In this document: positions 37,823 to 42,792 of the stretch, one piece after another | Numbering within the stretch: position 1 is the first letter of the stretch | How the letters are laid out: each line of letters opens with the position of its first letter | From: Pseudomonadota bacterium | GTDB taxonomy: Bacteria; Pseudomonadota; Gammaproteobacteria; Burkholderiales; Thiobacillaceae | Reading direction: 5' to 3' | Length of the DNA stretch: 64,000 nt | NCBI GenBank assembly: GCA_021784115.1 | Contig: JAJXTE010000002.1 | Location: forward strand, 1-64,000 | The notes under the pieces: generated by a model | Told to the model about the DNA's origin: nothing | The model's database searches: none | What the model saw: the letters and a program-made list of their open reading frames with translations, nothing else | Program-made: the position numbers and the translations under genes

Positions 37823-39223
37823 TCAGCCGCCGCCACCGCCACTTCCCACGCCGTGCGCAGCCTCCAGCACCAGCGCGTCGAAGTCGGCTGCAGTCATCAG
37901 CCCGCGCTCTGCAACGATGTCGCGCACGGGGCGGCCGGATTTCTCCGATTCCTTGGCGACTTCGGCGGCCTGGTTGTAGCCGATCCGGGTATTGAGCAGG
38001 GTGGCGAGCGCGATGCTCTGGTGGATGAAGAAGGCACATCTTTCCCGATTCACGACGATGCCCTTGAGGTTTTTCTCGGTGGCGGCGTTCATCGCATTGG
38101 TCAGCCAGTCCATGGCGTCGAAAAGCGCGCTGCCGAGCGCCGGCATCATCACGTTGAGTTCCATCTGCCCGGCCTGCACCATGTAGGACACCGCGGCGTC
38201 CTGCCCCAGCACCTGGAAGCACACCTGGTTGAGCATCTCGAACATCACCGGGTTGACCTTGCCCGGCATGATGCTGGAGCCGGGCTGCACCGGCGGCAGC
38301 TGGATTTCGCCCAGCCCGGTGCGCGGGCCGGAAGCCAGCAGGCGCAGGTCGTTGGAGATGCGGGTGAGCTCCAGCGTGAGGTTGCGGATCTCGCCGGACA
38401 GGCGCGCGAGGTCGTTCATCGACTGCATCTGCGCGACCAGCTGGCCGACGCGGATCGGCTCATTGGTGAGCGTGGCCAGTTCGGCGGCGACGCGCGACGG
38501 GTAGTCGGGCGAGGTGTTGAGGCCCGTGCCGGCGGCCGAGCCCCCGAGGCCGATATCGCACAGCGCCGGACGCACCGCGTCGAGCGCGGCTGCACAGCGG
38601 ATCAGCGTCCACGCGTAGCCGGCGAATTCCTGGCCCAGCGTGGTCGGCACCGCGTCCTGCAGGTGGGTGCGGCCCGATTTCACCGTGTTCTTCTCGCGCT
38701 CGGCCAGTCGCGAGAACTCCGCTGCCATGGCGTGCACTGCGGCAACGAGGCGCGGCAGCTTGGCCAGCACGGCCAGCCGGATCGCGGTGGGGATGGTGTC
38801 GTTGGTCGACTGCCCCATGTTGACGTCGTCATTGGGGTTGACCGGCTTGTAGCCGCCTTTCTCGCCGCCCAGCGCGATATTGGCGAGGTTGGCGATCACC
38901 TCGTTGCTGTTCATGTTGTGGCTGGTGCCGGCGCCGGCCTGGAAGCGGTCGACCACGAACTGGTCCTGATGTTCGCCACCGAGAATTTTTTCGCAGGCGG
39001 CGACGATCGCGTCCCGCTTTTCTTCGGAAAGCCAGCCCGGCTGGCAGTTGGCGCGCGCGGCAGCAAGCTTGATCCGCACGTGCGCTAGTACGAAATCCTT
39101 ATCCGGAAGGCGCCCCGAAATGGGAAAATTGGCGACGGCGCGCGCGGTCTGTGCGCCGTACCAGGCATCCACGGGAACCTCGACTTCGCCAAGCGAGTCT
39201 TTCTCGATGCGAACTTCATTCAT
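37823..39223 (-). CDS. aspA: aspartate ammonia-lyase (aspartase/fumarase superfamily)
   Basis: A 466-residue lyase with the superfamily signature GSSIMPGKVNP (about residue 317) and NPNDDVNMGQSTNDTIPT. Superfamily members are aspartase and class II fumarase. The segments GAGTSHNMNSNEVIAN and NQVCFQVLGQDAAVSYMVQAGQMELNVMMP match aspartase (NQVCF..., AGQ.(L/M)ELNVM) better than fumarase, which has GNFELNVF. Aspartase deaminates aspartate to fumarate. The protein ends in an unusual glycine run (GSGGGGG). Its start lies next to that of the divergent TlpA-like gene. Confidence 0.85.
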   Translation of the reverse strand: MNEVRIEKDSLGEVEVPVDAWYGAQTARAVANFPISGRLPDKDFVLAHVRIKLAAARANCQPGWLSEEKRDAIVAACEKILGGEHQDQFVVDRFQAGAGTSHNMNSNEVIANLANIALGGEKGGYKPVNPNDDVNMGQSTNDTIPTAIRLAVLAKLPRLVAAVHAMAAEFSRLAEREKNTVKSGRTHLQDAVPTTLGQEFAGYAWTLIRCAAALDAVRPALCDIGLGGSAAGTGLNTSPDYPSRVAAELATLTNEPIRVGQLVAQMQSMNDLARLSGEIRNLTLELTRISNDLRLLASGPRTGLGEIQLPPVQPGSSIMPGKVNPVMFEMLNQVCFQVLGQDAAVSYMVQAGQMELNVMMPALGSALFDAMDWLTNAMNAATEKNLKGIVVNRERCAFFIHQSIALATLLNTRIGYNQAAEVAKESEKSGRPVRDIVAERGLMTAADFDALVLEAAHGVGSGGGGG

Positions 39224-39236
39224 GATGGTAAAACCA

Positions 39237-39731
39237 ATGCAGACGTTACAAAGTGGTCGATTTTATCCGATATGGCTGGCCGGGCTCGTGCTGGCGCTGG
39301 CAGCCTCGTTGGCCCAGGCAGGCGGGTTCAGGCTGACGGATACCGAGGGCAAGATACACAGCCTGGAGGGCTACAGGGGCAAGTGGGTGCTGGTGAATTT
39401 CTGGGCAACCTGGTGCCCGCCCTGCCAGGAGGAGATTCCCGACCTGATCGCGCTGCACGGCGACAAGAAAAACAATCTCGTCGTCATCGGCATTGCCATG
39501 GACTACCAGGATGCCAAACAGGTGACCGATTTTGCGGACGGTCTGCTCGTCGATTACCCGATCGTGCTGGGCAACGCCCAGGTGGCGAGGCAGATCGGCC
39601 CGATTCAGGGCTTGCCGACCACCTATCTGTACAACCCTGAAGGTAAGATGGTTGCCCAGCAGGTGGGCGCGATCACCCGTGAGTCGGTTGAAAGCTTCAT
39701 CACCCGTAAAAGCCCGCGCCCCAAGAAATGA
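39237..39731 (+). CDS. TlpA-like periplasmic thiol-disulfide oxidoreductase
   Basis: A 164-residue protein with a signal peptide or anchor (about residues 12-28, LAGLVLALAASLAQA) and a TlpA/ResA-type thioredoxin fold: WVLVNFWATWCPPCQEEIPDL with the CPPC redox centre, and the cis-Pro loop GLPTTYLYN. It probably reduces periplasmic disulfides, as in cytochrome c maturation. The ORF track start lies within aspA on the other strand; the ATG at 39237 is chosen, though 39222 and 39225 are possible. First of four coupled genes ending in a TolC-like protein and an adaptor. Confidence 0.88.
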   Translation: MQTLQSGRFYPIWLAGLVLALAASLAQAGGFRLTDTEGKIHSLEGYRGKWVLVNFWATWCPPCQEEIPDLIALHGDKKNNLVVIGIAMDYQDAKQVTDFADGLLVDYPIVLGNAQVARQIGPIQGLPTTYLYNPEGKMVAQQVGAITRESVESFITRKSPRPKK

Positions 39732-39757
39732 GCCTGTCTGCAAATCGAGGAGACCTC

Positions 39758-40264
39758 ATGCGTCAACTGTTCATCGCGTTCTTCATGTTGTTCGCCGTAT
39801 CCGCACAGGCAGAGACACGTGACCCGGGCAGCCATTTCTTCCAGCCCAAGTTCGGCGACTTTCCGGCCGAGCTCAAGGCTGCCAAGGAGCAGGGCAAGAA
39901 GGGCATTTTCCTGTTCTTTGAAATGGACGACTGTCCCTTTTGCGAACGCATGAAAAGCACCATCCTCAACCAGGCCGACGTTCAGGATGCCTACCGCGCG
40001 CAATTTCTGCTCTACCCCATCGACGTCAACGGCGACACGCCCATGACCGACTTCCAGGGCAAGCACACCACGGAAAAGGCGTTTGCCCTGGCCAACCGCG
40101 TGCGTGCCACGCCCACGATGCTGTTCTTCGACCTCGATGGCAAGCTGGTGACGCGCCATACCGGGCCCACCAAGGACAAGGCCGAGTTCCTGCTGCTCGG
40201 CAGGTATGTGACCGAAGGTGTCTACAAGACCGAACCCTTCACCAAATACAAGCAAGGCAAATGA
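39758..40264 (+). CDS. periplasmic thioredoxin-fold protein with CPFC motif
   Basis: A 168-residue exported protein (signal MRQLFIAFFMLFAVSAQA) with GIFLFFEMDDCPFCERMKS, a CPFC redox centre as in SoxW-type thioredoxins, and a TPTMLFFD cis-Pro loop. A GAGGAGACC ribosome site directly before the ATG at 39758 favours this start over the ATGA-overlapping 39728. It resembles the CAWC protein at 9025. Its stop overlaps the TolC-like gene start (ATGA). With TlpA, it forms a redox pair in this operon. Confidence 0.87.
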   Translation: MRQLFIAFFMLFAVSAQAETRDPGSHFFQPKFGDFPAELKAAKEQGKKGIFLFFEMDDCPFCERMKSTILNQADVQDAYRAQFLLYPIDVNGDTPMTDFQGKHTTEKAFALANRVRATPTMLFFDLDGKLVTRHTGPTKDKAEFLLLGRYVTEGVYKTEPFTKYKQGK

Positions 40265-41529
40265 GGCGCGCGGCGTGGGTCGCGTTGCTGGCGTGGGCGC
40301 TGTCCACGACGGCAACTGCCGAACGACTGACGCTGGAGGAGGCGCTGGCGAGCGTGGCCGCGCCTCACCCCGACCGGCGGATTGCGGAAAGCGACCTGGC
40401 GCTGGCGCGCGCCGACCGCGAACAGGCAGCCAGCCGCCAGGATTTCAGCCTGTTTCTGGACGGCAGCCTGCGCACCGGGCGGCGGCCTGACGGCGACTGG
40501 AAGCCCGACAACATCGGCCGCATCGTGGCGCGCAAGCCGCTTCTCGATTTTGGCCGCAGCAGCCGGGCCATCGCCGCGGCGGATCAGGAGATCGCTGCCC
40601 GCCAGGAAGCCCTTTACACGGTGGAAAGCCTGCGCCGCATCGACATCATGGCGCGCTACTTCGATGTGCTGATGGCCGACAGGCAGTACGCCGCCGACAA
40701 CGAATTCATGGCGGTCGCCTATGTCGCGTGGGACAACGCGAAGGACCGTTTCAACGTGGGCCAGATCAGCCAGCCCGAGCTGCTGAAGCTGGAAACCGAG
40801 TACCAGGATGTCCGCGAACGCCGCAACGCCAGCGAGCAGCGCATGCGCAGTGCACGGCAGCGGCTTGCCCAGGCCATCTATCGGCCCGACACGCTCCCCG
40901 ACGAACTGGCCGAGCCTGAGCTCAAGGACAATGCGCGCCCGGTGCCGGATTACGAAACCCTGCTGCCCTGGGTCATGGCGAAGAATCCGCGCGTGCTCGC
41001 GCTGCAGGCCCAGCTGGCGGCTGCGGATGCGCGCCTGGCGGCGATACGCTCGGAGCGCAATCCGACACTCGACGCCGAGGTGATCGGCGCCGGCTACAGC
41101 CGGGAATCGACCACTCGCGACGAAGCGAGCGCAGGACTCGTGTTCACGATTCCGCTTTATCAGGGGGGGCGCGTAGATGCCCGGATCGCACGCGAACTCG
41201 CGCAAAAGGAGCGAACGTCCGCCGAGCTGGAAAAACTCGGGTTCGACCTCTCCGACACCCTGCTCGCGACCCTCCAGGAGATCGAATGGCTGCGCGGCAG
41301 CGGTCGCGCGGCGGCCGACAAGCAGATCGAATACCGCGACTGGGCGCTGGAACGCGCGCGCGCGGAATACGAACTGGAAATGAAAACCAACCTGGGCACC
41401 AGCATGGCCGAAACCCAGGTGGCGCAGATACGTCGCAAGCAGGTGGAATACCGGCTGGCACTGGCGCTGGCGCGACTGCAAGCATTGTCCGGCGGCAGCC
41501 TGCCGCCTGTTGAGGGAGCACGCAAATGA
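40261..41529 (+). CDS. TolC-family outer membrane protein
   Basis: A 422-residue protein with signal peptide (VALLAWALSTTATA) and the TolC architecture of two homologous halves of long alpha-hairpins: QAASRQDFSLFLDGSL...RKPLLDFGRSS in the first, PTLDAEVIGAGYS...FTIPLYQGGRVDARIAREL in the second. TolC proteins form the outer-membrane duct for tripartite pumps and type I secretion. The start ATG overlaps the thioredoxin stop. No inner-membrane pump is encoded nearby, only a short adaptor, so the cargo is unknown. Confidence 0.86.
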   Translation: MRRAAWVALLAWALSTTATAERLTLEEALASVAAPHPDRRIAESDLALARADREQAASRQDFSLFLDGSLRTGRRPDGDWKPDNIGRIVARKPLLDFGRSSRAIAAADQEIAARQEALYTVESLRRIDIMARYFDVLMADRQYAADNEFMAVAYVAWDNAKDRFNVGQISQPELLKLETEYQDVRERRNASEQRMRSARQRLAQAIYRPDTLPDELAEPELKDNARPVPDYETLLPWVMAKNPRVLALQAQLAAADARLAAIRSERNPTLDAEVIGAGYSRESTTRDEASAGLVFTIPLYQGGRVDARIARELAQKERTSAELEKLGFDLSDTLLATLQEIEWLRGSGRAAADKQIEYRDWALERARAEYELEMKTNLGTSMAETQVAQIRRKQVEYRLALALARLQALSGGSLPPVEGARK

Positions 41530-42047
41530 ATCAGCGCAGGGTGGCTATCGCACTGGCCGGATGGAGCCTGATGGGGGCAAGCCCGCTGTGGGCGGCAGAC
41601 AAGGTTGAACTCACCACGCGCGTGTCCGGCGTGGTCGAGACGGTGCTGGTCAAGCGCGGCCAACACGTCACAAAAGGCGCGGTGCTGCTGCGCCTGGACC
41701 GGACCGTCCTGCAGGCGCGCCTCGAGGAAGCCCACGCGGAACTTGCGCGCGCGCAGGCCGACGAGGCGGACGCCAAACGCGAGCAGGGACGCGCACAGGA
41801 ACTATACGACCGCACGGTTTCATCGACCAGCGAATTCGATGCCGCTACGCTGCGCTACGCCCGCGCCAAGGCGACCCTGTCGGCTGCCCAGGCGCGGCGC
41901 GTGATCGCGCACAAGAACCTGGCCGACGCCGAACTCAAGGCTCCGTTCGCCGGGGTGGTGGACGCGATACCGGGCGGACCCGGCACCGTCGTGGTCGCGG
42001 ATTGCCAACCGAAACCGCTGATCATCCTGAGTCCCGATCAGCGCTGA
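41526..42047 (+). CDS. short periplasmic adaptor (HlyD/RND MFP-like, lipoyl and hairpin only)
   Basis: A 173-residue exported protein with signal peptide (GWSLMGASPLWA). It shows the first lipoyl half (TTRVSGVVETVLVKRGQHVTKGAVLLRLD), an alpha-helical hairpin (LEEAHAELARAQADEADAKREQ...AKATLSAAQARRVIAHKNLADAEL) and the second lipoyl half (KAPFAGVVDAI), then stops. Usual adaptors are 350 or more residues and continue with beta-barrel and membrane-proximal domains; these are absent, and the stop is clean. The start overlaps the TolC-like gene (ATGA). Confidence 0.83.
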   Translation: MNQRRVAIALAGWSLMGASPLWAADKVELTTRVSGVVETVLVKRGQHVTKGAVLLRLDRTVLQARLEEAHAELARAQADEADAKREQGRAQELYDRTVSSTSEFDAATLRYARAKATLSAAQARRVIAHKNLADAELKAPFAGVVDAIPGGPGTVVVADCQPKPLIILSPDQR

Positions 42048-42129: not shown

Positions 42130-42639
42130 TCAGTCGGCCATGCGCTTGGCGATTTCCGCTTCCAGTTCGGCCGCCTGATGCGGCGACGCGACCGCGGCGA
42201 TCACCTTGTAGCACATCGGCAGGACGGCGTTGAAGCCAGCCAGATCCTGCACTTCGCTCATCTTCCGGTAGGCCGGGGACTTGGTTCCCACCAGCGCGGC
42301 CAGGAATTCCAGCGCATAGCTGCGGACATTTTCAAGTTTGGCTGCAGATGGCGCAGGGGCGCCCGCCGTGTTCGCGGCCGTCGTGGGGGCTGCGGCGGCC
42401 CCAGCGTCCTGCGGGCCAGCCATGGTGCGCAAGGCCTGGATGAACCCGTTTTTCAGCAGGTCGACCACCATGACTTCCAGGTCGGCGTAGTTCGGCAATT
42501 TGCCCCTGAGATCCGCAAGCGAAATGCCATTTCCCACGCTGAACAGGATTTGCCGCTGTTTGGGGCGCAAGGTATGGCCGTGGTTGAAGATTTCTTCCTG
42601 TCCCTTGACCGTGCGGGACAATTGCATTGTCATGTCCAT
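42130..42639 (-). CDS. hypothetical protein
   Basis: A 169-residue protein I do not recognise. It opens MDMTMQLSRTVKGQEEIFNHGHTLRPKQRQILFSVGNG, then a helical segment, an Ala/Pro-rich linker (about residues 75-95), and a helical C-terminal half (RSYALEFLAALVGTKSPAYRK...LPMCYKVIAAVASPHQAAELEAEIAKRMAD). No signal peptide or membrane segment is seen. The start at 42639 is fixed by a perfect GGAGGTGACT ribosome site; the track start is 18 codons too early. Two adjacent palindromes lie about 155-190 bases upstream. Confidence 0.75.
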   Translation of the reverse strand: MDMTMQLSRTVKGQEEIFNHGHTLRPKQRQILFSVGNGISLADLRGKLPNYADLEVMVVDLLKNGFIQALRTMAGPQDAGAAAAPTTAANTAGAPAPSAAKLENVRSYALEFLAALVGTKSPAYRKMSEVQDLAGFNAVLPMCYKVIAAVASPHQAAELEAEIAKRMAD

Positions 42640-42792
42640 AGTCACCTCCGTTGTCGTGATGCAGGTCTCCGCCTGTACCAAGGCAACGAGCATGGCCTGT
42701 GCCAGGACGAGGCCTTACCCGGAAATCCTTGACTGGCAAGGCATGCAGCGCGGTTGGGCGGGGAGAACGGAGGCAGGAATGGCGGCAAACCT

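Follow-up and report, generated by a model that had tools for sequence, protein, structure and literature searches.

A four-gene operon encoding two periplasmic thioredoxins, a TolC-like outer-membrane channel and a minimal periplasmic adaptor is conserved across the bacterial class to which the analysed DNA belongs, and comparison of the genomes makes its link to sulfur oxidation very probable. It likely works without a pump. As a whole mechanism we propose, tentatively and with somewhat less than even confidence, a periplasmic thiol relay coupled to an outer-membrane duct that is opened by a pump-less adaptor and serves sulfur oxidation. The route by which insoluble or polymeric sulfur passes the outer membrane in sulfur oxidizers is unresolved, and a 2023 study noted that membrane proteins for this passage lack experimental confirmation (PMC10045233). 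The operon is a compact, testable candidate: it is conserved and almost restricted to sulfur oxidizers, and it brings thiol chemistry together with an outer-membrane channel.

The window (the whole stretch of 64,000 nucleotides analysed here) is part of a Thiobacillus genome (contig C67; genome 2.23 Mb, 91% complete). The operon and its surroundings contain the following features.

37823..39223, minus strand: fumC, divergent neighbour, not claimed as part of the operon; its start codon is 13 bp from that of tlpA.
39237..39731, plus strand: tlpA, TlpA/ResA-like periplasmic thioredoxin with an ATWCPPC active site and a signal peptide (Pfam AhpC-TSA/Redoxin, AhpC-TSA 1e-20; NCBIfam ResA 3e-27).
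39758..40264, plus strand: soxW, SoxW-family periplasmic thioredoxin with a CPFC active site (Pfam Thioredoxin_2 2e-18).
40261..41529, plus strand: omf, TolC-like outer-membrane factor, two repeats, without cysteine (Pfam OEP 2e-36).
41526..42047, plus strand: mfp, minimal periplasmic adaptor of 173 aa, with a signal peptide, lipoyl half, alpha-hairpin and lipoyl half (RND_mfp match).
41790..41825, plus strand: RxxxLxxxxxxS TolC-docking tip in the adaptor (R89, L93, S100: RAQELYDRTVSS), invariant in the Thiobacillus alignment A1.
42003..42005, plus strand: Cys160 codon (VADCQPKP), the sole cysteine of the mature adaptor, invariant in 53/53 Thiobacillus copies.

The Pfam and NCBIfam matches confirm the four genes named in the original prediction, a CPPC TlpA-like and a CPFC SoxW-like thioredoxin, a TolC-like channel and a 173-residue adaptor. 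Its description of ATGA or short-spacing junctions also holds, with ATGA overlaps at soxW/omf (40261) and omf/mfp (41526). The soxW frame is open from a further ATGA at 39728, but this is probably not the real start because M11, at 39758, lies behind a GAGGAG motif and is the first residue of a clean signal peptide (MRQLFIAFFMLFAVSAQA); the tlpA–soxW spacer would then be about 26 nt. TlpA has the WCxxC active site and signal sequence of the TlpA-like fold, its ResA match (96 bits) being under the curated cut-off of 170, and CPPC is retained in all Thiobacillus copies and nearly all relatives examined. The channel belongs to the TolC/OEP family by its OEP repeats; no Thiobacillus copy has a cysteine, and in relatives, misread-frame loci aside, cysteines occur essentially only in the signal region.

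The Thiobacillus neighbourhood reads fumC(-) tlpA soxW omf mfp slt(-) proS(-). The gap between the fumC and tlpA start codons (39223–39237 in the window) stays at about 14–30 bp across Thiobacillus; no sigma-70-like site was found, so the promoters must sit within the opposite gene. The divergent neighbour is a fumarase of either of two unrelated classes, with class II fumC in Thiobacillus and eight other loci of the bacterial class, and a class I fumarase (PF05681/PF05683) in its place in 13 (variation seen at L145, L147, L149, L150, L155, L165, L170, L179 and L180); this would be accounted for by replacement of the gene in situ or by a functional connection of fumarase with the operon. Downstream, most Thiobacillus loci encode a conserved 187-aa protein (42130–42693, minus strand, in the window) without a Pfam or NCBIfam match.

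Wherever a contig extends far enough, the order is the same across the whole class: TlpA, SoxW, TolC-like channel, short adaptor. The later counts are based on tblastn and six-frame HMM searches, automatic gene calling having given wrong frames in high-GC loci. Among Thiobacillus loci the channel–adaptor pair is present in 53/53, with SoxW in 50 and TlpA in 47 and the remainder cut by contig ends; a further 66 loci elsewhere in the class have the pair, accompanied by SoxW in 61 and by TlpA in 41. Outside Thiobacillus an acylphosphatase often follows the adaptor (36 of 66 loci), and an ORF of about 89 aa in this position is acylphosphatase by sequence, a neighbour. CutA–DsbD or DsbD alone lies directly 3' of the adaptor in L143, L148, L177, L181 and L201, and after SoxW in L218; DsbD adjoins the operon in five loci of the class, a hint at most that it reduces SoxW, and four lineages have CutA behind the adaptor.

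A sample of 368 other genomes of the class was searched with an adaptor profile, a SoxW profile, SoxB, DsrA and SoxC, and 86 were accepted as operon genomes after the loci were checked by hand. In 18 of these the pair was accepted from a SoxW–adaptor distance of about 2 kb with the channel gene unread, and for two more the accepted locus consists of SoxW and channel at the end of a contig. One of 61 first matches (G282) was removed as an RND adaptor (L233), and profile A2 was left out of the prevalence counts, as ordinary RND adaptors also score well with it. SoxB is present in 81/86 operon genomes and 70/282 others (OR 49, p 1e-32), DsrA in 64/86 and 52/282 (p 2e-21), and either marker in 84/86 and 79/282 (odds ratio 108, p 4e-34), the significance in each case being inflated by relatedness. 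The operon is spread across at least 34 families, and at family level in the adaptor-profile set SoxB is found in 33/34 operon families compared with about 46/144, a family total inferred from labels. In an order-level sample the sole genome with a close relative (G049) has SoxB against a background of 12/24, which is consistent but not decisive. A SoxB match is absent from five operon genomes, and both markers from two (one of them 75% complete); DsrA gave no match at threshold in the window genome, perhaps because of missing sequence in an assembly that is 91% complete.

This association sets sulfur oxidizers apart from other genomes but does not hold among the sulfur oxidizers themselves. 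About half of the SoxB-positive genomes are without the operon, and among SoxB-positive genomes neither DsrA (p 0.08) nor SoxC absence (p 0.42) clearly predicts it; the operon is therefore not tied to one sulfur branch. SoxC itself is found in 15/86 operon genomes and 35/282 others, which is not significant, and the idea that the operon goes with the truncated Sox pathway that forms S0 was dropped, there being no SoxC association in either direction. The original prediction contained no sulfur link.

The adaptor was predicted to hold only the lipoyl and hairpin domains and to end after the second lipoyl half, and this is what is observed. It matches only positions 22–159 of the 322 of RND_mfp (116 bits, cut-off 95), and its AlphaFold2 model (pLDDT 88) is a lipoyl domain with a two-helix hairpin, with both the beta-barrel and the membrane-proximal domain absent. 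Foldseek places AcrA as the top match to this model (2e-11, TM-score 0.79 over 147 columns). Related adaptors of about 255 aa have the beta-barrel and end there without a membrane-proximal domain; the model of the sister of the Thiobacillus adaptor, from G049, shows this architecture (pLDDT 94). On a maximum-likelihood adaptor tree the barrel-less state needs five changes, at least four of them forced by well-supported branches, so barrel loss recurred. Two other families, whose genomes are small (1.4–2.6 Mb), also have barrel-less adaptors, of 158–179 aa and on a separate branch of the tree (L214, L215, L219, L227, L228).

The short adaptor is present in 35/35 sampled genomes of the same genus at 60–87% identity and is under purifying selection (dN/dS 0.05–0.19), and its conservation is thus far from chance. 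The R89/L93/S100 docking tip, whose RxxxLxxxxxxS pattern is the TolC-binding motif (PMC3391258), is found in 52/52 Thiobacillus loci, and the RLS string is strict in 45/67 adaptors outside Thiobacillus. Cys160 lies on a loop of the AlphaFold2 model, and relatives have Leu or a different residue in its place; it is a possible thioredoxin target in the Thiobacillus adaptor, but because it is limited to that genus an adaptor thiol cannot be a general feature, and an adaptor-thiol model for the whole family was dropped.

In the mechanism that we propose, the TolC-like trimer would span the outer membrane, and the short adaptor would dock by its hairpin tips on the channel's periplasmic mouth and hold it open or gate it. 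With no pump-facing domains on the adaptor, the channel would open to the periplasm and not to a pump. The two thioredoxins, SoxW and TlpA, would receive electrons from the cytoplasm via DsbD/CcdA; they may keep thiols reduced at the channel port, carry sulfane sulfur there, or both, and persulfide, polysulfide or zero-valent sulfur would move between periplasm and outside. Outward flow that disposes of excess S0 and inward flow that takes up external sulfur agree equally well with this scheme. In Thiobacillus only, Cys160 would be the thiol acted on by the thioredoxins. The comparisons themselves establish the gene order, the absence of an adjoining pump, the docking tip, the loss of pump-side domains, the restriction to sulfur oxidizers and the kinship with SoxW; gating without a pump, sulfur as the cargo, its direction and the reduction of Cys160 are proposals that go beyond them. 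The operon suggests that TolC–adaptor pairs can act without a pump, which would broaden the role of a large channel family. A pump-less TolC-type channel would be unusual, this type being known for pump-driven export, and that counts against the mechanism. The fullest form of the proposal, a new outer-membrane transport machine in which thioredoxins run a TolC-family channel opened by a pump-free lipoyl–hairpin cap and so move sulfane sulfur (persulfide, polysulfide, S0) across the outer membrane in sulfur oxidizers, is conceivable, though we regard it as unlikely.

The SoxW assignment agrees with the "SoxW-like" label first given to the gene. When the window SoxW was compared with 72,556 plasmids only three records matched; each match lies within a sox cluster, and two of these clusters read soxV-soxW-soxXYZAB. 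On the Ruegeria and Rhodobacter plasmids the matching gene lies between soxV/CcdA and soxX, and on the Indioceanicola plasmid it follows soxD in an unannotated sox cluster. The family alignment A3 has an invariant C69-P-F-C72, and its profile gives the Ruegeria and Rhodobacter SoxW proteins 63–65 bits. The Ruegeria SoxW scores higher with a second protein of the window genome (on C128) than with the window SoxW, so the comparison indicates kinship with the SoxW family, and one-to-one orthology with soxW is not claimed. That second protein (G000:C128, L239, 778–1737) is about 400 aa long with two matching stretches, and similar frames of 340–400 aa (E about 1e-26) occur in many sulfur-oxidizer genomes. 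In the operon-less genome G226 (L229:4623–7836) a SoxW relative follows a Porin_O_P gene and overlaps a Sulf_transp (YeeE/YedE) gene; the end of soxB is 5.5 kb upstream, and this is a further case of a SoxW beside an outer-membrane protein.

In another reading the operon is a redox repair and waste system for sulfur oxidation. SoxW and TlpA would act like SoxS, reversing wrong disulfides on SoxYZ or c-type cytochromes, and the duct would be the exit from the periplasm for small oxidised by-products (glutathione persulfide, polysulfide, sulfite). PMC10451225 and papers cited in it describe the reduction of mixed disulfides on SoxYZ by SoxS and of SoxW by SoxV, and both the DsbD genes beside the operon in some lineages and the same SoxB association would fit. 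By itself, however, this reading leaves unexplained why the thioredoxins are strictly tied to the channel and not to sox. Taken jointly, repair and waste removal seem rather improbable; they differ from the sulfur-passage reading mainly in cargo and purpose, a distinction undecidable from sequence.

The channel and adaptor might instead serve an RND, ABC or MFS pump encoded elsewhere, the short adaptor being a helper beside the pump's own adaptor. To our knowledge all characterised TolC–adaptor pairs do work with a pump, EmrA, which has no membrane-proximal domain, serves one, and the window genome encodes six full-length RND pumps as well as MacB-type ABC genes. All six RND pumps, however, lie beside their own full-length adaptors; a genome search with the flanks read found no orphan RND among them, and they include no candidate for a partner in trans. 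The original prediction had suggested looking for such a lone pump. At the operon itself, as it had stated, there is none, and a co-directional adjacent pump is absent from all 119 loci (53 Thiobacillus, 66 other), whereas ordinary RND adaptors recovered in the same search as a control (L097–L112) mostly have an RND gene within about 1 kb, so pump detection works. There are two exceptions: in L071 a MacB gene lies on the far side of fumC, 5.9 kb upstream, and in L204 an RND gene is on the other strand. A 1022-aa ORF 3' of the adaptor in L163 is a molybdopterin oxidoreductase and not a pump. The repeated loss of the adaptor barrel and the lack of an EmrA-like transmembrane anchor in the window adaptor further count against a distant pump, which we consider quite improbable. 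The six adaptor-paired pumps and the repeated loss of pump-facing domains weaken the prediction's alternative, in which the adaptor joins a pump encoded elsewhere. Neither outcome that the prediction named as refuting it occurred, the order being conserved and relatives having no pump gene fused to or beside the operon, so its idea that thiol chemistry is tied to an outer-membrane duct stands; the prediction is borne out in part.

Copper or other metal handling, with TlpA reducing copper-site cysteines and the duct exporting metal, is very improbable: TlpA-type proteins do reduce copper-site thiols during oxidase assembly and CutA adjoins some of the adaptors, but no metal-binding motif stood out in the four proteins, E. 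coli likewise has a cutA-dsbD pair, located next to dcuA and not near an operon of this kind, and the sulfur markers account for the distribution. That the operon is a decaying remnant whose pump was lost and whose order is kept by neighbourhood inertia alone is scarcely credible; the missing adaptor domains and the lineages that retain SoxW without channel or adaptor could be read so, but purifying selection disfavours it, and the invariant docking residues and Cys160 in Thiobacillus and the channel–adaptor pair in every Thiobacillus locus and 66 others also stand against it.

No published description of the operon was found in the open-access literature. Its parts belong to known families, and the sulfur link is the new result. 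Excerpts of adaptor reviews present EmrA as an adaptor that lost its membrane-proximal domain and BesA as one that lost its hairpin, and these excerpts mention neither a lipoyl and hairpin-only adaptor nor a thioredoxin link. EmrA, an MFS adaptor, also lacks one usual domain, but unlike the operon adaptor it works with a pump and retains both a barrel and a transmembrane anchor; BesA, from Borrelia, is the opposite case, having lost the hairpin and kept an RND partner. Tripartite efflux and type I secretion systems (AcrAB-TolC, MacAB-TolC, HlyBD-TolC) share the TolC-type factor, the lipoyl and hairpin domains and the RxxxLxxxxxxS tip. The operon differs from them in having two thioredoxin genes and no inner-membrane pump gene, and its adaptors lack the membrane-proximal domain throughout and the beta-barrel in Thiobacillus and several other lineages; judged by gene content, the assembly would lack the feature that defines tripartite pumps, an inner-membrane RND, ABC or MFS transporter that is encoded with the adaptor or docks to it. 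The YeeE/YedE carriers (SoxT, TsuA), one of which lies beside the SoxW relative in the L229 sulfur cluster, act in inner-membrane uptake without an outer-membrane part. The soxVW/soxS branch of the sox cluster shares with the operon a SoxW-family thioredoxin, DsbD or CcdA partners and occurrence in sulfur oxidizers, whereas the operon soxW lies beside an outer-membrane channel gene, away from sox genes and with a TlpA partner, and has a CPFC active site where the Rhodobacterales copies have CIYC.
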